Shown here: one piece after another, positions 31,296 to 41,366 of the stretch
Layout: each line of letters begins with the position of its first letter
Position numbering within the stretch: position 1 is the stretch's first letter
DNA from: Pseudoalteromonas shioyasakiensis
GTDB lineage: Bacteria; Pseudomonadota; Gammaproteobacteria; Enterobacterales; Alteromonadaceae
Length of the DNA: 64,000 nt
Direction: 5' to 3'
NCBI RefSeq assembly: GCF_019134595.1
Contig: NZ_CP077770.1
Span: 3,468,501 to 3,532,500 of the forward strand
Notes under the pieces: generated by a model
Databases searched by the model: none
What the model was told of the DNA's origin: nothing
The model's input: only the letters and a program-made list of their open reading frames with translations
Translations under genes and position numbers: made by a program

Positions 31296-31637
31296 TTAGT
31301 CAAGCTGGATACCATGTCGTCTTAATAACCACATGATGGAATCACGAAGCACATCAGGATCGACAACCGCAGCCATTGCGCAAACACGAAAGCAAAATGG
31401 CGTTAATTCGTCATTTTGAATCCACGACAACACATCCTTTCGCAATCGAGTACTGACACGACCGTCTAGCAATACACGGATCGCATCCAATAGAATGCCT
31501 TCGCGTAACTGCCAGATTTCCGTGTCAGACCAAGTGACAGGGGCATCATCAAACTCAAATAGAAATTCGAGCTGTGCTGATGTGTGCTGATGGGACTGCT
31601 TTTGTGATGTAGGAGAATGGGCAATACGCCCATTCAT
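31296..31637 (-). CDS. ICE core hypothetical protein
   Basis: A 113-residue soluble protein (MNGRIAHSPTSQKQSHQHTS at the start, then helical). No known domain is evident to me. Its start overlaps the radC stop by one base, so it is probably translated by coupling with radC. The 91-bp gap to the Toprim gene holds a hairpin (CCTGCATT/AATGCAGG). Confidence 0.6.
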   Translation of the reverse strand: MNGRIAHSPTSQKQSHQHTSAQLEFLFEFDDAPVTWSDTEIWQLREGILLDAIRVLLDGRVSTRLRKDVLSWIQNDELTPFCFRVCAMAAVVDPDVLRDSIMWLLRRHGIQLD

Positions 31638-32134
31638 TACAGATAACCGCGTTCGGCAAGCGAAACGCAGCCCTCGGATGCGACCACGACATGGTCAAGC
31701 GTTCGAATATCAACAAGTGACAAGGCGTCACGAAGTCGATGAGTGATGCGTTTATCAGCTTCACTGGGTTCAGGATCACCCGATGGATGGTTATGAACCA
31801 GTATCACTGCTGCCGCATTAAGTTTCAATGCCCGCTTTATTACTTCCCTTGGATATACGCTCGCCGCATCTAAAGTGCCTTTAAATAGCTCTTCAAATCG
31901 AATAACGCGATGCTTTGTATCAAGAAACAGCACGCCAAAGACTTCGTGCTCATACTCGTGCATCAGTGTTTGCAGGTATGAGAACGCCGACGATGGCTGT
32001 TCAATTTTTCGACCTTTACTCAATCGACTACGGGCAAGCTTAAGCGCCATATCTAAGATATCCGCTTCAGTCACTTGCTCAGGAACGATATAAGTACCGG
32101 CCTCTTCGCCAGCTAAGAACTTTTTGTTTTTCAT
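31637..32134 (-). CDS. radC: RadC-family JAB-domain protein
   Basis: A 165-residue RadC/YeeS-like protein. The JAMM metalloprotease-type motif HNHPSGDPEPSEAD is intact, as is the upstream glutamate in HEYEHEVFGVLFLD. RadC-family proteins are common on mobile elements, but their biochemical role is unsettled. I place the start at ATG 32134; a TTG 12 bases earlier has no better ribosome site. The Shine-Dalgarno GGAGAC pairs with GTCTCC upstream (see leader 32139-32200). Confidence 0.85.
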   Translation of the reverse strand: MKNKKFLAGEEAGTYIVPEQVTEADILDMALKLARSRLSKGRKIEQPSSAFSYLQTLMHEYEHEVFGVLFLDTKHRVIRFEELFKGTLDAASVYPREVIKRALKLNAAAVILVHNHPSGDPEPSEADKRITHRLRDALSLVDIRTLDHVVVASEGCVSLAERGYL

Positions 32135-32138
32135 AGGA

Positions 32139-32200
32139 GTCTCCAAAAAAAAGCGGAGACGAACCCATGCCCTGAAGGGGACGGAATCGTCCCCGCAGGG
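32139..32200 (-). promoter_or_regulatory. Two-hairpin leader of radC, second hairpin sequesters the Shine-Dalgarno
   Basis: In transcript orientation hairpin A (32170-32200) pairs CCCTG with CAGGG and GGGGACG with the following CGTCCCC. Hairpin B (32139-32160) pairs GTCTCC with GGAGAC across a loop that contains eight T. GGAGAC is the ribosome site of the ATG at 32134. Confidence 0.7.
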
Positions 32201-32217
32201 TGGTAAAATTGATGTGG

Positions 32218-33873
32218 TTACTGAATTAACAGTTGTTGTGTTACTTCGAATAACTCACGCTTCAGATCTTTGACGTCGTTAATCACGATGCTTTGAGGAA
32301 AGAATTTCTCAACACTGCGTGTTTGAATCCCGATCCCCAGCAGCTCAAAGCTACTGCGTCTGCACCGGTCAACAATGTCATGCGTGGCAGCCCAATCATC
32401 TGGGTCACCATCCGTTAGCACTATCATTAGCTTTCGCTTCTGTTTTTGCGCTAACAAACTGTTTGCCGCAAACCACATAGCTTGTGCCATAGGCGTACAA
32501 CCTCGTGGTTTTTGGTCAAAACACGCGGCCCGATGTCGAAGCGATTGCTTGGGCAATAACGCGATAGATACTTCCTGATGAATACCTGGAAAATAACTGA
32601 CCGCAGGTACAACACCGGGTATACCTTCCAATGCCATGGCCAAAGCCAAAGCAGCTTCATTGGCAACATGAAAGTACTTGCGATTACCTTCGCCAATGGG
32701 TTTACCCATTGAGCCCGATATATCGACAAGCAAGTGCACAGCAGCATTGGGCGCAATGCGAGGCTGCCTTTGAATAAACAATCTCGACTCACCTGCTTGG
32801 GAAGCGGCAAGACGATGGGTTGCCACTCGAAGACCGTGCCGTTTGGCATGATTCCGACTGTCCTGACTGGACTGAACCATGCCCCTAAGTCGGGCTCGAA
32901 TTTGAGCGGACTCGGAAGCCGATAAAGTCAAAATGTCCTCATCACCCAACATAGCTTGCTCTGCTTGGGGCAAACTGAGTGGAGTAACGCCCTGATGTCC
33001 TTCAGCTTGTTCCGACAACACTTCTGCCACTTGTGCAAAGGTATCGGGTTCAAACTGAGCGGCACTGGCCTCTAAGGCTTGTCGCAAATTGTCAGCTTGA
33101 TCAGAGTTATCTGAATCCCCGGTTTCAGCAGCATCCCCTGTTGCAGACGAGTCTGTTTCCGGGGTTTGACTACCACTACTGTTATTGCTGTCATTACTCG
33201 CATCTTGTCCAATGTCATTACCGCTATCAGCATCCGACTCATCCTGTGGTGGACGAGATTCTTCCTCCAACATGGCAACAATGGCATCGACAAGTTTCAG
33301 CACTTCACCTGTAGAGCCTAAGCTAGGCACTGCTGTCAGCATGGCGCTTAACCGGCTCATCGCTGCGGCAGGAAAGAGTTGTCTCACTCTTTCATCAACA
33401 GCTTGATACAAAGGCGTCAGCGATTCCTGACCCAGAAAATGGCATCTCAAGCGAAACAACAACCATGCTTGCAAGTTAGATGCAGGCTCAGGCTGTTCAG
33501 GTACACACATTTGCTGTGTGCCCACCATGTACTCAATCACTTGCGAAATACTGCGCCGGGTTCCGGGGTAATCCTTTGCCAATTCGTTTTCAATGCGAAC
33601 GTCCTCAATGATATTGAGAAGTGCCTTACGGATCGGTTTGGACGACGCCTTCTGCACCATTTCAAAATTAGTATGCCGAATATGCGCCGCTTCATGAGCC
33701 AGATAACCCCAAGCTATCTGTTGATAGTGTGGGTCGTCTGGGTTTGCTGTTGGGATCACAATCCGCTCACCATCGGTAAACGCATCTTGTCCTTGAATAA
33801 GCACCTTCACACCAAACTTTTCGCCATAAGCGGCGGCAACGATTGGCAGTGCGTTTTTTAATGGATGATTCAT
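32218..33873 (-). CDS. CobT-like protein with zincin-like and von Willebrand A domains
   Basis: A 551-residue protein with an HEAAH metal-binding motif near residue 58 (YLAHEAAHIRHTNF), an acidic low-complexity middle (about 205-270, rich in D, S, E, N), and a C-terminal VWA domain. The MIDAS motif DISGSMG and TDGDPDDW are visible in the VWA domain. It resembles CobT, which works with the AAA ATPase CobS in cobalt chelation. Here a CobS-like ATPase lies in the same cluster but no cobalamin genes do, so a different AAA/VWA chaperone role is more likely. What the pair acts on is unknown. Confidence 0.8.
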   Translation of the reverse strand: MNHPLKNALPIVAAAYGEKFGVKVLIQGQDAFTDGERIVIPTANPDDPHYQQIAWGYLAHEAAHIRHTNFEMVQKASSKPIRKALLNIIEDVRIENELAKDYPGTRRSISQVIEYMVGTQQMCVPEQPEPASNLQAWLLFRLRCHFLGQESLTPLYQAVDERVRQLFPAAAMSRLSAMLTAVPSLGSTGEVLKLVDAIVAMLEEESRPPQDESDADSGNDIGQDASNDSNNSSGSQTPETDSSATGDAAETGDSDNSDQADNLRQALEASAAQFEPDTFAQVAEVLSEQAEGHQGVTPLSLPQAEQAMLGDEDILTLSASESAQIRARLRGMVQSSQDSRNHAKRHGLRVATHRLAASQAGESRLFIQRQPRIAPNAAVHLLVDISGSMGKPIGEGNRKYFHVANEAALALAMALEGIPGVVPAVSYFPGIHQEVSIALLPKQSLRHRAACFDQKPRGCTPMAQAMWFAANSLLAQKQKRKLMIVLTDGDPDDWAATHDIVDRCRRSSFELLGIGIQTRSVEKFFPQSIVINDVKDLKRELFEVTQQLLIQ

Positions 33874-33932
33874 GGGAGTCTCCTAATCATTAGGGGGAAT
33901 ACTCCCTCAGCGGGAGCGTTTCCCCGCTGGGA
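33874..33932 (-). promoter_or_regulatory. Two-hairpin leader of the CobT-like gene
   Basis: Hairpin A (33908-33929) pairs CAGCGGG with CCCGCTG. Hairpin B (33874-33906) pairs GGGAGT with ACTCCC and CCTAAT with ATTAGG, burying GGAG, the Shine-Dalgarno 6 bases before ATG 33873. Confidence 0.7.
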
Positions 33933-33942
33933 ATGTAAGTGT

Positions 33943-34383
33943 TTAAACCTGTGCTTTTAGCTTATCCAGGTCGTATTTTTGACCTAACCAAGCCACCAAT
34001 TGAGCTGGACTCTCGTGCTGTTCAAATGACGTTTTAAGCTGGTCTAAACTCAGGATGTCATTCAATGTCAGACCGTACTGGTCTTGTAACTGAGTAGACA
34101 CCTCGTGTTGATATTGCAGCCAGGCCCGCTCAAAAGCGGTTTGCTGCAATGCCATGTTTGGAACAAATACCATGGCCGTTACCCAAGCTCCTTGTGCGTC
34201 CGCATCTGCGATCAGCACAGGGTTCTTGGGGATCACGACACTATGTGTTGAGTACGACCGTTGTACTAACGCTCGACAACACGCCACTTCTGGTATCGAT
34301 TCGCTTTCAACCGCATCAGTCACACCACGAAAATGTGGTTCAAACTGGTTCAGTTGGCTGGGGTTATGGATGGTTGATTGCAT
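33943..34383 (-). CDS. ICE core hypothetical protein
   Basis: A 146-residue soluble protein without a domain I recognise. It lies between the CobT-like and DUF3150 genes. It begins MQSTIHNPSQLNQFEPHFRG and ends KYDLDKLKAQV. The gene has its own structured leader, as do its neighbours, and its ribosome site AGAGG is paired in that leader. A role alongside the CobS/CobT-like pair is inferred from position only. Confidence 0.6.
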   Translation of the reverse strand: MQSTIHNPSQLNQFEPHFRGVTDAVESESIPEVACCRALVQRSYSTHSVVIPKNPVLIADADAQGAWVTAMVFVPNMALQQTAFERAWLQYQHEVSTQLQDQYGLTLNDILSLDQLKTSFEQHESPAQLVAWLGQKYDLDKLKAQV

Positions 34384-34388
34384 AATTT

Positions 34389-34437
34389 CCTCTTACATAG
34401 TTCAGAGGACATGCGCCCTTAAGGGCAACATGCCCTC
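34389..34437 (-). promoter_or_regulatory. Leader of the 146-residue protein gene with two mutually exclusive hairpins
   Basis: Hairpin A (34405-34437) is long: GAGGGCATG pairs with CATGTCCTC around GCCCTTAAGGGC. Hairpin B (34389-34408) pairs CCTCT with AGAGG, the Shine-Dalgarno. Both use bases 34405-34408, so the RNA could switch between a closed and an open ribosome site. Confidence 0.6.
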
Positions 34438-34444
34438 AAGGACG

Positions 34445-35398
34445 TTAGAAATAAAATGAGTTTGGTACAGTCGAACCAAGGTTTGGTCTGACGGTTGGTT
34501 GTGGTATTGCACGTAAGTTATCTGCCTGAGCAGATACTGGCGGTGCGGGTTTAGGTTCAGGTTTGGGCATCAGTTGTCTGATATCCAATTGACCTTCACC
34601 GTGCATTCTCATCTTGTCTGGATCAGACAAAATTAAAATGGTCGCCATCAGTTCGTGATAGAGATTGTCTGTCACAGGGCCGGTCTTCGGCAGACGAACA
34701 AATAAATTGTCCATCGCTTCAACCATTGGCTGAACTCGATGATCCAGGAAGGACAAACCATCCAACTTGTCTCTTAACCGTTTGAGAGGATTAAGGGCTC
34801 GCTGGCTGATTTGATTCTTACCTGCAACGGAACGCTCAAACAGTTCGTTGGCATCACGAGCCACCTCCCTAAAGAGGGTGTGTCCCATGCCATTGACCTT
34901 GTCATCTAAGCCACCAGCTTGGTCAGCCGGTTGCATTCGATAGATGGCATAATCGAACTGAAGCCGTTGTTCCACGTCTTCGATGGGTGACAGCGCACGC
35001 CGGATTGCATCTGCAAATTCCGGGTGTTTTGCAACCCAGTCAAAAGTCACCTGATCATAGTTGTCCAAGAACAACTGCTTGCACTGCGCAAACTCCTGAC
35101 CTATACGGTCAAGTTCTGGAACAATTTGATCAATTCGGTCTTCAGGGACGGCATAGCCACCTAAGAACCGCACACCGACTTGCTCACACAAACGCTGCGC
35201 TTCTTTCTTAAGCCTTTCAAAGTTCGCCAATGCCTCTGGGTCGCAAATTTTTTTACTCCCTAAGCTGGCAACATCCTTCGGAGGAAGTTGGCTGCCATTG
35301 GCTAATCTGAAATCTTCAGGCCTTAGCTTTTTTCTACCGCTCCAGATGGAACAGTCGATGTGACAAATCAAAAGTTTGTCGAGGGTTTGAATACTCAT
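34445..35398 (-). CDS. DUF3150-family protein ending in SFYF
   Basis: A 317-residue helical soluble protein matching DUF3150, a family found beside CobS/CobT-like genes on mobile elements. No catalytic motif is evident. The middle shows RLKKEAQRLCEQVGVRFLGGYAVP and helical repeats. Its C-terminus NSFYF is almost the same as that of Exo and similar to that of the WGR protein in this cluster. Its leader carries a Shine-Dalgarno-pairing hairpin. Confidence 0.75.
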   Translation of the reverse strand: MSIQTLDKLLICHIDCSIWSGRKKLRPEDFRLANGSQLPPKDVASLGSKKICDPEALANFERLKKEAQRLCEQVGVRFLGGYAVPEDRIDQIVPELDRIGQEFAQCKQLFLDNYDQVTFDWVAKHPEFADAIRRALSPIEDVEQRLQFDYAIYRMQPADQAGGLDDKVNGMGHTLFREVARDANELFERSVAGKNQISQRALNPLKRLRDKLDGLSFLDHRVQPMVEAMDNLFVRLPKTGPVTDNLYHELMATILILSDPDKMRMHGEGQLDIRQLMPKPEPKPAPPVSAQADNLRAIPQPTVRPNLGSTVPNSFYF

Positions 35399-35399
35399 A

Positions 35400-35465
35400 G
35401 TGCATCCTCATGCGAGATGGGGACGCACCACTCCCAGCAGGAGCAATGGCCCCCGTTTGGGTGGT
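35400..35465 (-). promoter_or_regulatory. Two-hairpin leader of the DUF3150 gene
   Basis: Hairpin A (35427-35465) pairs ACCAC with GTGGT and GGGGGCCA with the following TGGCTCC-like arm. Hairpin B (35400-35428) pairs GTGCGTCC with GGATGCAC (one G-U pair), burying GAGGA, which lies 7 bases before ATG 35398. Confidence 0.6.
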
Positions 35466-35496
35466 AGTAGTTGACGCGCTAATGGCAACATCACTA

Positions 35497-36267
35497 TCAG
35501 AAATAGTAATTTTGCGAATCAGGCGACGATTGGTTGAGATCGATTTTCGCAGGCATTAAGTCCAGTGCTTCAGCTATCGGGCGAACCCGTTCTAAATCAC
35601 TGCCTAATAACCTCAATACATCTTTTTCCAACTTCAGTTGGTCGGATACTTCTATTCCTTCAGGACTCGCTACTGTGAGCGAACACAGTGGCGGTATTTG
35701 ACGCTTAAAGGCCAGTAACAGCAACAATGGCCACGGGCCATCATCAGTGTTAACAATGCCAGCGCCTTCACCTGACACCATGCTGATTTGATTGGTACTA
35801 GGTAATCCGCTTTTGCAAAACCCTAATGACCATTCTCCAATCCTGACCTGGTTATCATCAATAACAGCCAAGCCATAGGCTTCAAGCAGCTTTGCCATAT
35901 CGAACAACGCTTTTTGCGCCAGCGAGATTTGGCCATTGACGTCCTTGCGAGTACGAAACTCCCAACTGACGTTATTGGCGCACGCGACGCTATCAAGCGC
36001 ATTTGAAAGTTCAAATGGCCGCCCTTGATGATCAATGCCGACTTGTCCAACCAATCGATAACCCTTGTTGATTTTCTCATTGATTCTTCGGTCTGCTTCT
36101 GCGTTAGGATCAGTCGAATCAATCAATCGCTGCTGCGACAATTGACCAGCTTTTCCAAACCGAACTTCAATCTCCTGGTTATCTGATCCAACGTAAATGG
36201 CCCATTCTTTGGCTGTCCCATCAGAATGACTGTAACGGTAAAGAGCAAAGCACTTTTCCATCTTCAA
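35497..36267 (-). CDS. WGR-domain protein ending in NYYF
   Basis: A 256-residue protein. The first 75 residues (CFALYRYSHSDGTAKEWAIYVG through FGKAGQLSQQRLIDS) fit a WGR-like domain, a nucleic-acid-binding module seen in PARP-type and AAA-associated proteins. The rest is unrecognised. Its stop follows QNYYF. The start overlaps the CobS-like stop by four bases, so it has no leader of its own and is probably coupled to that gene. Confidence 0.6.
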   Translation of the reverse strand: MKMEKCFALYRYSHSDGTAKEWAIYVGSDNQEIEVRFGKAGQLSQQRLIDSTDPNAEADRRINEKINKGYRLVGQVGIDHQGRPFELSNALDSVACANNVSWEFRTRKDVNGQISLAQKALFDMAKLLEAYGLAVIDDNQVRIGEWSLGFCKSGLPSTNQISMVSGEGAGIVNTDDGPWPLLLLLAFKRQIPPLCSLTVASPEGIEVSDQLKLEKDVLRLLGSDLERVRPIAEALDLMPAKIDLNQSSPDSQNYYF

Positions 36268-37223
36268 TCCTCCCAGTGGTCACCGAAGACATCAGCGGCA
36301 ATACGGTGAATGGCTTCTCGTTGCTCCAACTCTGCACGAGCCGTCAAAGACCGAACCAGTGCATATTCCACTGCGTTAGGAGCGCCTTTAAAAGCAAGTG
36401 TTAACTTTGCCCAGCGCACCAAGGTCCGAGTAGACATGGTGATACTAAGCTCAGCACCGCCATCCGCGCCCCCAATAAAAAGACGACGAATGTCACCAGC
36501 CACCTTCACCATTTTTTGGCGAAAGACTTCTGGCAAGCCCGGCGCAACGTTCTCCAGAATGGTTTCCTCTACAGATGGCTCTGCATAGGTCGCTTCGATG
36601 ATTCTAAAGCGATCAAGAAAAGCCAAATTCTGTTGAAGCACACCTTGATACAAGCCCGTTTGATCACCGCTGCCCGCACTGTTGCCGGTAGCGATAAAAC
36701 GAAACTTGTTATGTGGCATGATGATCTCTCCGCCATTTTGTGCGATGACCAACGGGGCACCTTCCAAAATGTCATTGAGTCCAGCCAGTTCAGCAGGCTC
36801 AGCAAGATCCATTTCATTAATGATCAGCAAATGGCCATGCTTTACAGCCAGTGCCAGCGGTCCATACACAAAGGTCATGTTGCCATTAACCAGCGTGTGG
36901 TGACCGATAAGATCGGACAACTCCAATCGACCGTGCGCAGTAATTTGCTGAACAGGCCAATTCAATCGAGAAGCAACTTGGCAAATTAGCGAGGTCTTAC
37001 CGCATCCAGTGGGGCCTGTAATATACAAACCGTCACCGTCTGGGTTAGACAAAAACGCCAATATGTCACGTAAGTCTTCTTTTCTAAAAACATACTCGTC
37101 CTTGCGAACGGGAATGTTTGGATGGGTAGTGTCGGCACCAAATCCTTCCAGAACGAAAGCATCAGGAGCCGGGACATTAAACGCTTGATTCACTTGAACC
37201 AAAAATGGGGATTGTTCAGTCAT
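36264..37223 (-). CDS. CobS-like MoxR-type AAA+ ATPase
   Basis: A 319-residue AAA+ ATPase. Walker A GPTGCGKT (70-77) and Walker B LLIINEMDLA are intact, with an arginine-finger region near FRFIATGN. It resembles CobS, the ATPase partner of CobT, and MoxR-type ATPases that work with VWA proteins. The VWA partner is encoded four genes downstream. I chose ATG 37223 because it has GAGG six bases upstream; the frame is open further upstream but has no start with a ribosome site. Its leader has a Shine-Dalgarno-pairing hairpin. Confidence 0.85.
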   Translation of the reverse strand: MTEQSPFLVQVNQAFNVPAPDAFVLEGFGADTTHPNIPVRKDEYVFRKEDLRDILAFLSNPDGDGLYITGPTGCGKTSLICQVASRLNWPVQQITAHGRLELSDLIGHHTLVNGNMTFVYGPLALAVKHGHLLIINEMDLAEPAELAGLNDILEGAPLVIAQNGGEIIMPHNKFRFIATGNSAGSGDQTGLYQGVLQQNLAFLDRFRIIEATYAEPSVEETILENVAPGLPEVFRQKMVKVAGDIRRLFIGGADGGAELSITMSTRTLVRWAKLTLAFKGAPNAVEYALVRSLTARAELEQREAIHRIAADVFGDHWED

Positions 37224-37229
37224 GGTAAA

Positions 37230-37285
37230 CCTCATCTGTTTTGACGAGGCCCCATGCCCCAACAGGGACTGAAGTCCCCGTCGGG
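37230..37285 (-). promoter_or_regulatory. Two-hairpin leader of the CobS-like gene
   Basis: Hairpin A (37257-37285) pairs GACGGGGACT with AGTCCCTGTT. Hairpin B (37230-37249) pairs CCTCGTC with GATGAGG (one G-U pair), burying the Shine-Dalgarno GAGG six bases before ATG 37223. Confidence 0.65.
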
Positions 37286-37432
37286 TGGTGTGTTGATTGT
37301 GGTATGGCTGTGTATGTAAGAGTTCAGCTCGCTCTATCATTCGTACCCAGCATTGGCTACGAGTGAAACTGCTTTATGATGCACTCAATGTAAGCGCATG
37401 AGAAAGGAGCCGAAATCGGCTCCAAGTGAACG

Positions 37433-38449
37433 TTAAAAATAAAATGAGCTCGGCGAGTCACCTGGCAGAACCAAGTTCTCTTGCTCAAGGCTGATTTTGA
37501 TTGGTGTTTCAACGGGCTGCTCTGGCTTATTGGTGCTGATACGCAACCGCTCTTGTGGCGCTTTTCGGTAAGCGGCTAAAACCTGTTCATCCAGTTCGCC
37601 TAATTTATCGGTGGCCAATTGCTTATAGTCCACCGTGCCCGCCATCATGTAGCGGCTGAGTTTGACCCCAGCATAATCCGCATGAGCGTAATTACCCATC
37701 ATAGCGACCAATTTTGACTGAGCTTCTCGCATTTCCTCTTTCAAAGATTTAATGTGATTTTCCAGTCGGACCACTTCGGAATGTGCTGAGCAATACTGCC
37801 GAGACAGCGATGTCCAGCGGTATTGGGCTTCACCCTTGGGAACAAAACAATCTTGTTCAGGGCATTTTGACGGTTCTTTTTTGGTCTGTACTAACTCCCA
37901 AAACTGAAGCGCTGTTTCTTGCAATTCAGTTAAGAACGCCGCGTCTCGTTGTATTTCAAACTCAATCAGTTGATCCTCAAAATAGAATACCAACCAACCA
38001 CGCGTGCTATTGGCGACCAGTATTTGATGCTGTACTTGTACCCAATACAACTGGTACGCCTCGCTTTGTTCTCGGTGAGCTTGCACATCCTCAAAAACTG
38101 ACTGGCAAGGACATTTCAGTTCAACGGGTTCGCCCGCATCGTTGATGCCATCAAAGCTGGCTCGAAAGATTGCGTTATGATCGGCTTCTGCACATAACGG
38201 CAGAAGAAAGTCATTATGCGCATTATCAAATGCTCGCCTTGCTTGAGGCTCCAACCGTATACCGCGAAGCACATTTGGATTATTCGACAGGTCTTCCGGT
38301 AATACGAATCCAGTTTTTTCTGCCCATAATCGCCAAGGTGTTTTGTAGGGTGAACGCCCCATAATAATTGGGGCTTCAGATGCCGTAACCCCTGCAATGC
38401 GCCACTGGTGCCATGCAGGAGTACGTTGTGATAGGTCGATAACCTTCAT
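37433..38449 (-). CDS. exo: Exo, lambda-type YqaJ exonuclease
   Basis: A 338-residue 5'-3' exonuclease of the YqaJ/lambda Exo family that resects DNA ends for the Bet annealing protein. The catalytic region is visible in ASFDGINDAGEPVELKCP (D...ELK), preceded by RGIRLEPQARRAF and followed by QVQHQ. In SXT/R391 this pair promotes recombination between ICEs and so generates hybrids. The C-terminus is SSFYF. The leader upstream has two hairpins. Confidence 0.93.
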   Translation of the reverse strand: MKVIDLSQRTPAWHQWRIAGVTASEAPIIMGRSPYKTPWRLWAEKTGFVLPEDLSNNPNVLRGIRLEPQARRAFDNAHNDFLLPLCAEADHNAIFRASFDGINDAGEPVELKCPCQSVFEDVQAHREQSEAYQLYWVQVQHQILVANSTRGWLVFYFEDQLIEFEIQRDAAFLTELQETALQFWELVQTKKEPSKCPEQDCFVPKGEAQYRWTSLSRQYCSAHSEVVRLENHIKSLKEEMREAQSKLVAMMGNYAHADYAGVKLSRYMMAGTVDYKQLATDKLGELDEQVLAAYRKAPQERLRISTNKPEQPVETPIKISLEQENLVLPGDSPSSFYF

Positions 38450-38452
38450 ATT

Positions 38453-38502
38453 GTCTCCTTTGAGGGGGAGACTCCCCCGAAGGAGAGAACTCCCCTTCAG
38501 GG
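38453..38502 (-). promoter_or_regulatory. Two-hairpin leader of exo
   Basis: Hairpin A (38475-38502) pairs CCTGAAGGGGAG with CTCTCCTTCGGG. Hairpin B (38453-38472) pairs GTCTCC with GGAGAC, the Shine-Dalgarno three bases before ATG 38449. The stem is identical in sequence to hairpin B of radC, though the loops differ. Confidence 0.7.
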
Positions 38503-38510
38503 TTAAGTGG

Positions 38511-38654
38511 TTACTTTGCAGCTTGTGCTAACGCTGTTTGGTGCTGAACAACACTTGCTTGAACCGAATCAATTGCCGCTTTACCGGCTTGAATCGAACC
38601 TACGACAAGGGCAACAACCAATACCAAGCGAAAAAGTGAGGCTGATTTAGTCAT
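38511..38654 (-). CDS. 47-residue small membrane/secreted peptide between bet and exo
   Basis: ATG 38654 opens a 47-codon frame: MTKSASLFRLVLVVALVVGS, then a helical tail ending AQAAK. It has a basic start and a 15-residue hydrophobic stretch, and could be a signal peptide plus short mature part or a single membrane helix. Support for coding is that it has GGAGA upstream in the same two-hairpin leader architecture as the real genes around it. The function is unknown. Confidence 0.65.
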   Translation of the reverse strand: MTKSASLFRLVLVVALVVGSIQAGKAAIDSVQASVVQHQTALAQAAK

Positions 38655-38714
38655 GGAAGATCTCCAAAAAAAAGACGAGACCTTCCCCCTGACGGGAGAA
38701 TAATCCCGCCAGGG
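38655..38714 (-). promoter_or_regulatory. Two-hairpin leader of the 47-residue peptide gene
   Basis: Hairpin A (38687-38714) pairs CCTGGCGGGA with TCCCGTCAGG. Hairpin B (38655-38686) pairs GGAAGGTCTC with GGAGATCTTCC across a loop with eight T, like the radC leader, burying GGAGA. Confidence 0.65.
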
Positions 38715-38736
38715 TTAGTAAAATGAATGCGTGGCG

Positions 38737-39555
38737 CTAAGAAGCTAAAGGCTGTGTGAGCGCTTTGGCTGCTTGTTGTTGTGCATTAAATATTTCTTGT
38801 TTCGCAAACGTCAGTTCAACACCCTGAAAATGTTCATTGGCATATTCCAATGCACTATTCCAAGCGTTTGAAGCTTCTGCCCGCTCGATAAGCTTGTAAA
38901 CAAGCCCTCGGGTTCGATCATCAACTTGCTCGGGTGGAATCACTGATGGCTCAACAACGTGTGTTGCTTGGCCTTCGATAATTCGCTCCGCTTCGTCTTG
39001 ATCGAAAATCCCCACAAAGCCAAACGCAATGCGGGAACACTGGATCATGGATTTATGTCTTAGCATTCGCTTAGTGTGCGTCTGCCATGGACCATCTACC
39101 CGGTAAGGGCCATTTTTGCCGTTACCTTCAAAAGGCGGTCGATAGACTTCATCCAGATACTCAGTGATTTTGACTGGGTGCGAACGGTCGCGCCGATAGA
39201 TGATGCATTCCATCCATTCTGGGCATTCTTTCGCGCCATCCAGTGAGACTTTGTTTTCTGAAGTCTTAAACTCCATGCCATCAAACTGGTCGTGTTGATT
39301 GATGATGCGAGACCATCCATCGACACCTACCACTGGAATAATTCCAGCTTGTTTATCAGGGAACGCAAAAATCTCTTTGGTGAAAGGGTTCAAGCCATAC
39401 TGATCTGCAACCACCAAGAGCGCCATCATCTGCTCATTGGTCGGTGCACTACCGTCACGTTGCTTGAATGCTGTTGCTTTTAGAGTATCGAACAATTTGT
39501 TTGGATCGACACTAAAGCGCTCAGCAAAGCGTTGGATTAGCTTTGGTTTTTCCAT
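38737..39555 (-). CDS. bet: Bet, RecT-family single-strand annealing recombinase
   Basis: A 272-residue RecT/lambda Bet-type protein that anneals complementary single strands after Exo resection. Family signatures include VDPNKLFDTLKATAFKQ, LLVVADQYGLNPFTKEIFAFP and WQTHTKRMLRHKSMIQCSRIAFGF. ATG 39555 is preferred over an in-frame TTG at 39570, because GGAG lies six bases before it. The start and length match Bet of SXT. The gene follows ssb and precedes the 47-residue peptide gene and exo. Confidence 0.93.
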   Translation of the reverse strand: MEKPKLIQRFAERFSVDPNKLFDTLKATAFKQRDGSAPTNEQMMALLVVADQYGLNPFTKEIFAFPDKQAGIIPVVGVDGWSRIINQHDQFDGMEFKTSENKVSLDGAKECPEWMECIIYRRDRSHPVKITEYLDEVYRPPFEGNGKNGPYRVDGPWQTHTKRMLRHKSMIQCSRIAFGFVGIFDQDEAERIIEGQATHVVEPSVIPPEQVDDRTRGLVYKLIERAEASNAWNSALEYANEHFQGVELTFAKQEIFNAQQQAAKALTQPLAS

Positions 39556-39559
39556 TTTG

Positions 39560-39615
39560 GACTCCGACAATCAAAGTGGGAGTCTGCCCCTGACGGGAAA
39601 GTACTCCCGGCTGGG
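39560..39615 (-). promoter_or_regulatory. Two-hairpin leader of bet
   Basis: Hairpin A (39587-39615) pairs CGGGA with TCCCG plus CCC with GGG, with two mismatches. Hairpin B (39560-39584) pairs GACTCC with GGAGTC, burying the Shine-Dalgarno GGAG six bases before ATG 39555. Confidence 0.6.
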
Positions 39616-39634
39616 TTAAAGCGTTTTTGCTCGG

Positions 39635-40054
39635 TTAAAAATCTGGTTCAGGATATGTTTGTGCCCAATTAGTTTGGGAGCCCGCATCATCCGCCGGTGA
39701 TGGCTCAGATGCTTTGTTCACACTATCAAGAAGCAGAAACTCGTCCGCGTCCACTTCGGTCAATCGATGCTTAATGCCATCTTTCTCCCATGAGCGCGTG
39801 CGCTGAGGCCCTTGAACAAATAGCTTCGCTCCTTTTTGGATTAAATCTTTTGCTCTTAGCCCTAACTTAAATCCACCACGATCTCGAAAAACGACCCGAT
39901 GCCATTCCGTATGCTCTTTAAGCTCATTGGATTGACGGTCGCGCCATTTCTCAGAAGTGGCCAGTGAAATACTGGTCACTAAATCACCTGATGGATAGGC
40001 TCGTGTCTCTGGCTCAGCGCCAACGTAGCCTATGAGTGTTACTTGGTTTTTCAT
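39635..40054 (-). CDS. ssb: Single-stranded DNA-binding protein of the ICE
   Basis: A 139-residue SSB. The OB-fold (about residues 1-110) starts MKNQVTLIGYVGAEPETRAYP and contains TEWHRVVFRD, and the tail ends YPEPDF. The typical SSB tip is DDDIPF; this divergent tail has fewer acidic residues. In SXT, ssb, bet and exo form a recombination module. It has no structured leader: it follows the 108-residue gene by 15 bases with AGGAGA exposed. Confidence 0.92.
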   Translation of the reverse strand: MKNQVTLIGYVGAEPETRAYPSGDLVTSISLATSEKWRDRQSNELKEHTEWHRVVFRDRGGFKLGLRAKDLIQKGAKLFVQGPQRTRSWEKDGIKHRLTEVDADEFLLLDSVNKASEPSPADDAGSQTNWAQTYPEPDF

Positions 40055-40069
40055 GATGTTCTCCTCGTC

Positions 40070-40396
40070 TTAGTTGAACTCTGTGCACACAGTCGTTTCT
40101 ACCCGGCTGGGCAAAGAAGACTGACGGCGCAGATAGGTTGGTATTTCGAGTAAAGCCATGTCGTACTGATGTGGCTCTTTGTAAAACGCAGATGTCAAAC
40201 GGGGCATACCAGGAGCTTTAGGCACTGCCATTGGACGACGTTTTGGTGTTGGTGTGAGCAACCGTTTGATTTGAATAAATACAAATCGAAACGGGCGCAC
40301 GCTTTGACGAGCAACCAATCGTAAAAGCGACCAGCTCAGTTTTGCAAGCAACATAATGCCTGCGATTTGGATAATAAATCCGAAGATATATTCCAT
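40070..40396 (-). CDS. Small membrane-anchored ICE core protein, first gene of the module
   Basis: A 108-residue protein with one N-terminal hydrophobic helix (about residues 3-27, YIFGFIIQIAGIMLLAKLSWSLLRL) followed by a basic region (FVFIQIKRLLTPTPKRR) and a soluble tail. No known domain is seen. It is the first gene of the minus-strand ssb-bet-exo-cob-radC group and carries the strongest leader hairpins. Confidence 0.65.
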   Translation of the reverse strand: MEYIFGFIIQIAGIMLLAKLSWSLLRLVARQSVRPFRFVFIQIKRLLTPTPKRRPMAVPKAPGMPRLTSAFYKEPHQYDMALLEIPTYLRRQSSLPSRVETTVCTEFN

Positions 40397-40397
40397 T

Positions 40398-40459
40398 GGT
40401 GACTCCTTAATTAGGTTGTGAAGGAGTCACCCCCAACTGGGGAAAACTCCCCCAGTTGG
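40398..40459 (-). promoter_or_regulatory. Two-hairpin leader of the 108-residue protein gene (strongest of the set)
   Basis: Hairpin A (40433-40459) pairs CCAACTGGGG with CCCCAGTTGG perfectly. Hairpin B (40398-40431) pairs GGTGACTCCTT with AAGGAGTCACC, an unbroken 11-bp stem that buries AAGGAG, the Shine-Dalgarno six bases before ATG 40396. Confidence 0.75.
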
Positions 40460-40462
40460 GTG

Positions 40463-40763
40463 GTGAAAAGGCGAACCATTAGGAACGCATGGTTGAGCAT
40501 GTAAAAACATGCAGGCTATTTGTTTAAGGAGGCTAGCTACCTCTTAGTACCACTGAGAATACTCAGCGGCGGGCTTCCTTTGAGCTCATGCTCTCAGGCG
40601 CAGATATCACTGAAACAGATCAGCAATATTTGATAGTCAGTGTAACCGTCTTATTCAGACAGGATAGTTAGAAAGATGCTCAATTCTTCCACCTAGCTGA
40701 AAGGCCATTACCTCACAGAGGATTAGGCTAGGGACTGATTATTGTCATATCAGGAGCAAACTT
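40463..40763. other. Structured noncoding region between the recombination module and the s063-like gene
   Basis: The 300-bp divergent gap has no ORF worth reporting. It contains hairpins such as CCACTGAG-AATA-CTCAGCGG (40550-40569) and GCATGT-AAA-ACATGC near 40487-40502. It should contain the promoters of both flanking units, probably including SetCD-responsive sites; I cannot place a SetCD box with confidence. Confidence 0.5.
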
Positions 40764-41366
40764 ATGGCCCAAACAAAACCCAATTACTCAAAACCCATCT
40801 TTGAACAATCATTCACAATTAATAGCTTACAGGCGCAACGTGTCGTTGACCGTGTTTTTAGACGGACGGTCAGTGCGCTTTACGGAATCGATGTCATCCT
40901 ACGCATCATTGGCGATGAGAACGAAATTGATGAAGTAGAACAGATCATTAGCCAGTTGATCGAGGATTGCGCTAAAGCGGTAGACAACGAACAAGCTCGT
41001 TTGGACAAATTGATGGAGTCCAACGGCATCGATGAAGTACCTGACTACACCGACCCGATTACCTTCAACGCCAAAATCAGCTCGCCTCAGGTTGGCCAGT
41101 TTGTCGGCTTAGTTCGCAAACTCGATGCGTTGATGATCTCAATGGACACACTCTGGTTGTCTAGCGTGCTTAGCAACAAACAACGTGTTGATGGCAACTA
41201 CGCATGGCAACAGCGCATTATCAAACTGGCTCGACGCATTATTGATATCGAAATTCGAGCACGAAAATCAGCTCAAGCCAAGGGTAAAGAAGCAGAAGTT
41301 GAACAAGCAGTACCTTCAACCGATGACGATATCACTGAAGAGGAAACAGATACCCCCGCCAACTAG
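40764..41366 (+). CDS. DUF1845-like ICE core protein at the hotspot 4 edge
   Basis: A 200-residue cytoplasmic protein (SFTINSLQAQRVVDRVFRRTVSALYGIDVILRI near the start, an acidic tail at the end). It resembles DUF1845, the family that includes AcaB, a transfer activator in IncC plasmids. The link is from recollection and needs checking. In SXT the gene at this position is s063, the conserved edge of hotspot 4. It runs opposite to the recombination module. Confidence 0.6.
   Translation: MAQTKPNYSKPIFEQSFTINSLQAQRVVDRVFRRTVSALYGIDVILRIIGDENEIDEVEQIISQLIEDCAKAVDNEQARLDKLMESNGIDEVPDYTDPITFNAKISSPQVGQFVGLVRKLDALMISMDTLWLSSVLSNKQRVDGNYAWQQRIIKLARRIIDIEIRARKSAQAKGKEAEVEQAVPSTDDDITEEETDTPAN

Follow-up and report, generated by a model that had tools for sequence, protein, structure and literature searches.

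What is the role of an RNA leader that is repeated, in different sequence, before nine genes of a single gene block? The question is raised by a stretch of 64,000 nucleotides (nt) of the Pseudoalteromonas shioyasakiensis chromosome (NZ_CP077770.1, positions 3,468,501 to 3,532,500; the whole stretch is called the window here), which carries an SXT/R391-type element. These elements, together with IncC and IncHI plasmids, are major carriers of antibiotic resistance. In the recombination and DNA-processing block of the element, nine minus-strand genes are each preceded by a GC-rich hairpin A and then, just before the start codon, by a hairpin B whose 3´ arm contains the Shine-Dalgarno sequence. 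We find that these leaders belong to a structural family in which, gene by gene, the 5´ arm of hairpin B could also pair with the loop side of its own hairpin A, and we suggest that each leader is, on balance, probably an autonomous two-state translation gate.

Nine leaders of one structural type

A preliminary description, made from the sequence alone, had reported the nine leaders. We searched the 64 kb, with filters off, with a covariance model (R1) trained only on 45 leaders of IncC-family plasmids that were chosen by gene start; the window itself had no part in building R1. The eight best matches are eight of the nine leaders (expectation value, E, 5e-7 to 4e-4), followed by a weak match before ssb at rank 9 (E 0.011) and the leader of a gene for a 146-amino acid (aa) protein at rank 10 (E 0.086). 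The first match beyond these has an E of 2.5. When the region from -70 to +3 was folded and compared with 200 dinucleotide shuffles, minimum free energy (MFE) z-scores ranged from -2.9 to -7.2 for the nine leaders, and had a mean of -0.74 for 40 other open reading frames (ORFs) of the window, with z <= -3 in 4 of the 40. The nine leaders are real and not due to chance. Predicted openness of the Shine-Dalgarno window, taken alone, does not distinguish the nine (0.15-0.45) from the other ORFs (mean 0.38; <0.2 in 9/40), which speaks against a simple reading. The observation is in fact larger than was claimed. Two features were overlooked in the preliminary description: an alternative pairing, between the loop side of hairpin A and the 5´ arm of hairpin B, and a distribution of the leader that reaches well past SXT/R391 elements.

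That the stems differ between genes while pairing is kept, as the same description held, is borne out by swapping arms among the nine. The own arms of hairpin B pair at -14.7 kcal/mol compared to -6.8 kcal/mol for swapped arms (0/10,000 permutations), and those of hairpin A at -20.8 compared to -14.1 kcal/mol (1/10,000). The cognate arms of hairpin B and the recovery by R1 support a common leader type with hairpin B holding the Shine-Dalgarno sequence, and a Shine-Dalgarno-like word lies in the hairpin B 3´ arm of 203 of 217 leaders.

Gene-specific complementarity between the two hairpins

Within each leader, the 5´ arm of hairpin B (segment 3, or C3) can pair with the loop side of its own hairpin A (segment 1, or G1). 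We measured this without an alignment: hairpins A and B alone set the segment boundaries, and every segment 1 was then paired computationally with the segment 3 of all leaders. Cognate 1:3 pairs were stronger than swapped pairs for the nine leaders of the window (-12.5 vs -8.8 kcal/mol), for 36 non-redundant of the 45 IncC-family leaders (-14.8 vs -10.2 kcal/mol), for 112 non-redundant of 146 leaders (-14.1 vs -9.5 kcal/mol), and for 62 non-redundant of 85 leaders found at other loci by R2, a sequence-only model (-15.6 vs -11.0 kcal/mol), with 0/10,000 permutations in every set. Matches to R1 lean slightly towards 1:3 because R1 includes a 4-pair 1:3 helix chosen by RNAalifold; R2 was used with the nine and A3 sets to avoid this lean. 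The control pairings 2:4, 1:4, and 2:3 were flat or marginal, the strongest being 1:4 in the IncC set (462/10,000), followed by 1:4 in the R2-found set (903/10,000) and 2:4 in the nine leaders of the window (966/10,000).

Alignments point to the same helix. RNAalifold, unprompted, picks the 1:3 helix as the consensus of the IncC alignment. Across an eight-pair version of this helix, 78.6% of the alignment cells are paired, compared to 67.1 ± 1.5 after shuffling and 42-62% in slid controls, and 46 cells are changed on both sides, compared to 20.9 after shuffling; 0/500 shuffles reach either measure. The R2-based alignment of leaders from other loci gives 74.3% paired (69.2 shuffled; 50-65% in slid controls) and 71 both-side changes (41.2 shuffled), again with 0/500 shuffles. 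The pair counts surpass every slid control on both percentage paired and covariation score, and unsupervised column covariation recovers the 1:3 diagonal in both alignments, with two artefact rows of zero shuffle variance at the top of the ranking for alignment A5. The structural family and the G1:C3 complementarity are well supported.

The covariation is found between genes and between element families, but not within the SXT/R391 family. A comparison of orthologous SXT/R391 leaders, which the preliminary description had proposed, gave a weak result: paired positions do vary less than unpaired ones (45/390 vs 55/252, p 5e-4), but, after setting aside leaders with indels and the divergent L045, L048, and L049, we counted 1 compensatory, 14 one-sided, and 34 breaking variants. 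The leader stems of this family are nearly frozen, so covariation tests must use other genes or other elements.

Two exclusive folds and predicted switching

The leader may be described as six alternating strands, C1-G1-C2-G2-C3-G3, with the Shine-Dalgarno sequence in G3, which sometimes reaches the start codon. In the proposed OFF fold, hairpin A (C1:G2 outer, G1:C2 inner) and hairpin B (C3:G3) would form and the Shine-Dalgarno sequence would be paired. In the proposed ON fold, G1:C3 would enclose C2:G2, and C1 and G3 would lose some or all of their pairing. Computation shows that these strands are present, that G1 and C3 covary from gene to gene, and that the folds are mutually exclusive, the 1:3 helix taking at least 4 bases needed by hairpin B in 218 of 231 leaders. 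Forcing 1:3 raises predicted Shine-Dalgarno openness from a mean of 0.32 to 0.60, with a rise in 203 of 210 leaders, at a median cost of 7.1 kcal/mol; for bet, the nested ON state costs 2.0 kcal/mol.

The order of folding matters in these calculations. The unfinished transcript, before G3, favors ON in 169 of 231 leaders (35/231 with hairpin B swapped), and the finished leader does so in 5/231. Estimated barriers for 178 leaders are 19.9 kcal/mol (median) from hairpin A to ON, 15.0 from ON to OFF, and 3.5 for closing hairpin B, although lifetimes based on such folding are rough. These energies suggest that hairpin A forms first and hairpin B closes quickly, so that OFF is by calculation the default fold. 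An OFF state of translation is likely.

Masking 4-6 nt at the 5´ base of hairpin A (C1) leaves the full-length leader in the predicted ON fold in 121-147 of 217 cases, compared to 5/217 when unmasked. Swapped hybrids turn ON in 109/651 with 6 nt masked, and the IncC set in 27/45 (4 nt) and 31/45 (6 nt). Within the window, the bet, exo, DUF3150, and CobT-like leaders switch to ON in both nascent and masked folding, the CobS-like leader in nascent folding only, the 146-aa gene leader on masking of the hairpin A 5´ strand, and the radC leader when nascent or with a 4-nt mask but not with a 6-nt one. Temperature, one of the openers suggested in the preliminary description, is not supported. Between 25 and 45 °C, predicted Shine-Dalgarno openness shifts by <=0.03 for each of the nine leaders, and we rejected an RNA thermometer.

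A leader family across mobile elements

Plasmids, species genomes, and viral contigs supplied a set of related Bet loci. In 46 of these loci, R1 gave 260 matches up to E 1, and all 196 matches at E <= 0.02 (24 sources) lie on the coding strand. The leader precedes at least 50 of the 70 listed block genes in four IncC-family plasmid loci, many of them without an SXT counterpart. This number is a lower bound, because it uses only those of the best 150 matches, 146 in all, in which two hairpins could be separated; the ssb gene of pTC2, for example, was missed despite its R1 match. The 21 listed of 25 matches in pTC2 all fall at 34.0-61.1 kb on the minus strand. None of the phage- or prophage-like Bet loci (L074-L079, L083, L085, L086, L089-L092, L100, L102, L105, L129) is among the matches listed, and a Helicobacter locus has one weak match (E 0.019).

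R2 extended the family to R27 (3 matches), R478 (3), and pCAR1 (6), some of these partial and weak, and found no match in Rts1, F, or ColIb-P9. Scans of other genomes, with stricter filters and 16-17 candidates scored per genome, gave matches at E <= 1e-4 in 17/275 genomes of the class and 8/298 of the phylum sample. The matches precede real ORFs, encoding DUF3150, VWA, toprim, ssb, RadC, DUF3577, ArdC-type antirestriction, methyltransferase-like, and helicase proteins. TraI_2, the MOBH relaxase domain, is more common in leader-bearing genomes of the class (11/17 vs 30/258, p 1.4e-6), and strong TraI_2 matches even more so (10/17 vs 9/258, p 2.5e-9), as scored per genome rather than per element and counted by eye from listings. 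IncHI plasmids, pCAR1, and chromosomal elements therefore belong to the range of the leader, which is associated with MOBH relaxases. No Rfam 15 family reaches its gathering score over a leader in the window, 7 related loci, or 10 further loci, and relaxed Rfam searches gave nothing that covers a leader. The same searches revealed a group II intron (RF02012, 128 bits) in one leader-bearing locus (L209, 774-923, minus strand).

Repeats indicate that leaders are copied within elements. In pTC2, a 126-bp repeat of 99% identity includes the CobS and DUF3150 leaders plus upstream sequence. A chromosomal locus (L206, 1-7900) has several leader-bearing repeats of 62-212 bp with 92-100% identity, which suggest recent copying of the leader between genes. 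pTC2 also has a second repeat of ~60 bp with a UUCG-type hairpin, in several copies inside the leader block (Table 1); the two copies inspected lie directly upstream of the CobS and DUF3150 leaders.

How the leaders may act

We think that a switch is the best explanation of the 1:3 complementarity, though an unproven one, and that each leader probably works on its own as a gate that could be switched if C1 were held open. Folding energies suggest that, if C1, a CCC strand with which hairpin A begins at its 5´ base, were held open during transcription, the ON fold would form and could persist. The occupant of C1 might be a factor that recognizes the (A)ACCC strand and opens many leaders at once, which could apply to all of them, or, where a stop codon adjoins hairpin A, the ribosome finishing the upstream gene. 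The block could in this way be strongly transcribed while translation is held, and then be released as a group. A broader form of the model is more tentative, and we regard it as possible rather than probable: a single element or host factor, or a cell state, might act on the CCC strand to flip most leaders cotranscriptionally. A large MOBH-type element could thereby control a regulon of 10 to 25 genes, or more, for DNA metabolism and establishment, through leaders that differ in sequence but share the logic of their strands, with new genes joining via copied leaders.

Several observations weigh against a switch. The estimated barrier from hairpin A to ON (see above) means that an external trigger is required, and we found no trigger for this opening of hairpin A. 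The two nucleotides AA precede CCC in about 0.86-0.88 of 163 leaders, but the models that selected these leaders include AA, and only some of the nine leaders of the window have it. A trigger by stop codons does not work for 24 of 46 leaders, nor for the gene that opens the operon. Switching of the nine is incomplete (6/9 nascent, 6/9 with 4 nt masked, and 5/9 with 6 nt masked), and the leaders of the 108-aa and 47-aa genes never switch, nascent or masked. Under 1:3, openness for bet rises only from 0.21 to 0.34, because the freed Shine-Dalgarno sequence can re-pair with the former hairpin B loop, and for exo it remains at 0.50. Finally, no leader match accompanies bet, exo, CobS, DUF3150, and CobT in the Thorsellia locus (L052), so block genes can do without the leader.

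Could hairpin B simply fix a low level of translation, with hairpin A insulating or protecting the RNA and 1:3 a by-product of G- and C-rich strands? Such constitutive damping fits with OFF being both the MFE fold and kinetically easy, with the failure of some leaders to switch in silico, and with there being no known trigger. We nevertheless consider it unlikely, since swapped 1:3 pairs of the same composition are weaker by ~4-5 kcal/mol in three sets, and 2:4, 1:4, and 2:3 have no comparable effect; a by-product of composition would not be gene-specific. Another proposal, related to the ribosome coupling suggested in the preliminary description, is that the ribosome ending the upstream gene covers C1, blocks hairpin A, and so opens the next gene without gene overlap. 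The predicted fold does flip precisely on masking C1, 22/46 leaders have the upstream stop codon no more than 23 nt from hairpin A (abutting it in 10), and one case in the window is the stop codon of DUF3150, directly next to hairpin A of the gene that follows. The other stop codons are further away, so coupling is not universal. In addition, the first gene of the window has no upstream cistron in the operon, and the CobS-like leader lies ~150 nt from exo with a terminator-like site in between. We consider a relay by upstream ribosomes unlikely as well.

Two further readings seem very improbable to us. Attenuation by translation of a short upstream ORF through the hairpins, as for erm or cat, could draw on an ATG frame that crosses both hairpins of the first-gene leader of the window and stops in the hairpin B loop. 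When this leader, the one for which the reading was checked, was compared across 53 loci (37 distinct sequences), neither frame nor stop was kept: the stop is often lost, indels shift the frame, and all three frames are open by chance. The repeats might instead act as DNA, with the incoming strand offering single-stranded promoters or sites for a regulator. The genes served include ssb and those for ArdC-like antirestriction, methyltransferase, and helicase proteins, types used early in a recipient, and other plasmids are described as having shared upstream regions on such genes (PMC8708921). We find this hard to reconcile with a position locked to the Shine-Dalgarno sequence and start codon and to the coding strand (counts above), and a promoter-pattern scan of the module gave 3 sites compared to 12 expected from shuffles.

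Within the model of a translation gate, we looked for a partner of the leader among the genes it accompanies. The CobS/DUF3150 module was rejected as the regulator. It has relatives in 21/23 loci of the first group and in L203, but in 0/12 of the leader-bearing loci L204-L215, of which 9/12 have radC relatives. With leaders present without the module in these loci, and the module present without leaders in Thorsellia, it is not an obvious partner. pCAR1 encodes a csrA-like gene (L202, 16108-16281) on the opposite strand, near traN and leader-bearing genes; it alone does so among the loci examined, as tblastn found no relative in the others, although CsrA of the host might act on the leaders.

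Relation to known systems

The preliminary description knew of no account of such leaders in SXT/R391 elements. This does not hold for bet. According to a 2015 review that cites Garriss et al., 2013, bet of SXT lies behind a strong translational attenuator, which IncA/C plasmids have too and which keeps a highly transcribed gene poorly translated (PMC4542580). This attenuator has the same place, in the same element family, as the bet leader of the window, and it supports the OFF state for one of the nine leaders. Here the bet leader is one of nine and recurs in many element types, whereas the passages of the review on this attenuator mention neither other genes nor an alternative fold. A SetCD-activated promoter is reported before s089, the first gene of this operon (PMC4344509). 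Attenuation of bet was thus already known. In the open-licence papers searched, we found no account of a leader family or its breadth, of leaders before the other genes, or of the alternative fold.

Exclusive folds that expose or hide a Shine-Dalgarno sequence, with folding order being important, are familiar from the rpsO double hairpin and pseudoknot, the MS2 maturation gene, and hok. Those are single genes, whereas here one design is repeated over many genes with different sequences. Shared upstream elements that would permit common control also have counterparts, as far as their published descriptions allow comparison. The CUP elements of IncN plasmids are shared upstream sequences on several plasmid genes and are described as sites for the DNA-binding regulator ArdK (PMC6289460) rather than as RNA folds at start codons. 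In pLS20-family plasmids, establishment genes are preceded by shared regions that contain inverted repeats, the EGeRS1 sequences (PMC8708921), which are 400-600 bp long in Gram-positive plasmids, whereas the leaders described here are ~65 nt, locked to the start codon, and in Gram-negative elements.

If the leaders are indeed gates, they would form a second control layer above the SetCD/AcaCD transcription switch, at which the element could keep the whole block untranslated or allow its translation, and one factor or condition would decide whether the recombination and DNA-processing block becomes protein. The sequence-independent logic of the strands is open to direct testing. The leader can also serve as a marker for the regulon in uncharacterized elements, and represents a case of a portable RNA element copied from gene to gene.

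Leaders and neighboring features in the window

The block behind the leaders was delimited by ORFs, Pfam, and orthologue searches (Table 1). Its gene order is 108-aa gene, ssb, bet, 47-aa gene, exo, CobS-like, WGR-like, DUF3150, 146-aa gene, CobT-like, radC, and 113-aa gene, and the CobS-like product has AAA_5 and CbbQ_C domains (Pfam). Start codons were revised relative to a mechanical ORF list for bet (ATG 39555), the CobS-like gene (ATG 37223), and radC (ATG 32134).

Table 1. Coordinates of the leaders and related features; positions are those of the window unless a locus is named.
Feature	Position	Strand	R1 E	z	Remark
Block behind the leaders	31296..40396	-			ORFs, Pfam, orthologue searches
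108-aa gene leader	40394..40467	-	5.1e-7	-6.7	s089 position, first gene of operon; ends at ATG
ssb, weak leader	40052..40118	-	0.011	-1.4	mostly within 3´ end of 108-aa gene
bet leader	39553..39622	-	7.6e-5	-2.9
47-aa peptide gene leader	38652..38721	-	5.5e-7	-7.2
exo leader	38447..38509	-	1.7e-5	-3.6
CobS-like AAA ATPase gene leader	37221..37296	-	1.2e-4	-5.8
DUF3150 gene leader	35396..35468	-	1.6e-6	-3.7
146-aa gene leader	34381..34451	-	0.086	-6.0	hairpin A abuts DUF3150 stop codon
CobT-like VWA gene leader	33871..33939	-	1.5e-4	-3.7
radC leader	32132..32207	-	4.0e-4	-6.2
UUCG-type repeat of pTC2	L173 8951-9064, 15221-15259, 18513-18590, 19008-19076, 23422-23478, 27193-27318, 32028-32152

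Genes that overlap or lie close to their predecessor had been said to lack the leader. This agrees with the IncC-family loci, where 8/20 leaderless genes overlap or follow the predecessor by <=10 nt. For the three genes of the window named as leaderless, the absence of a good leader is supported. All have background-like z-scores (ssb -1.4, WGR +0.9, 113-aa gene -0.5), and ssb has only its weak R1 match. This ssb leader is probably degenerate, and it may be a relic, because the ssb gene of pTC2 carries a full R1 match (L167, 9291-9363).

Between exo and the CobS-like gene there is a terminator-like hairpin with a T-rich tail (37406-37423, minus strand), and the block may therefore be more than one transcript. 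The region also has a second copy in the same chromosome (G000:C1:910470-919961, matching 31500-41000 of the window at 97% identity). The chromosome holds two SXT/R391-type elements with leaders in each, and, among the 150 of 261 candidates scored in this genome, R1 matches at E <= 0.001 are confined to the two element copies.

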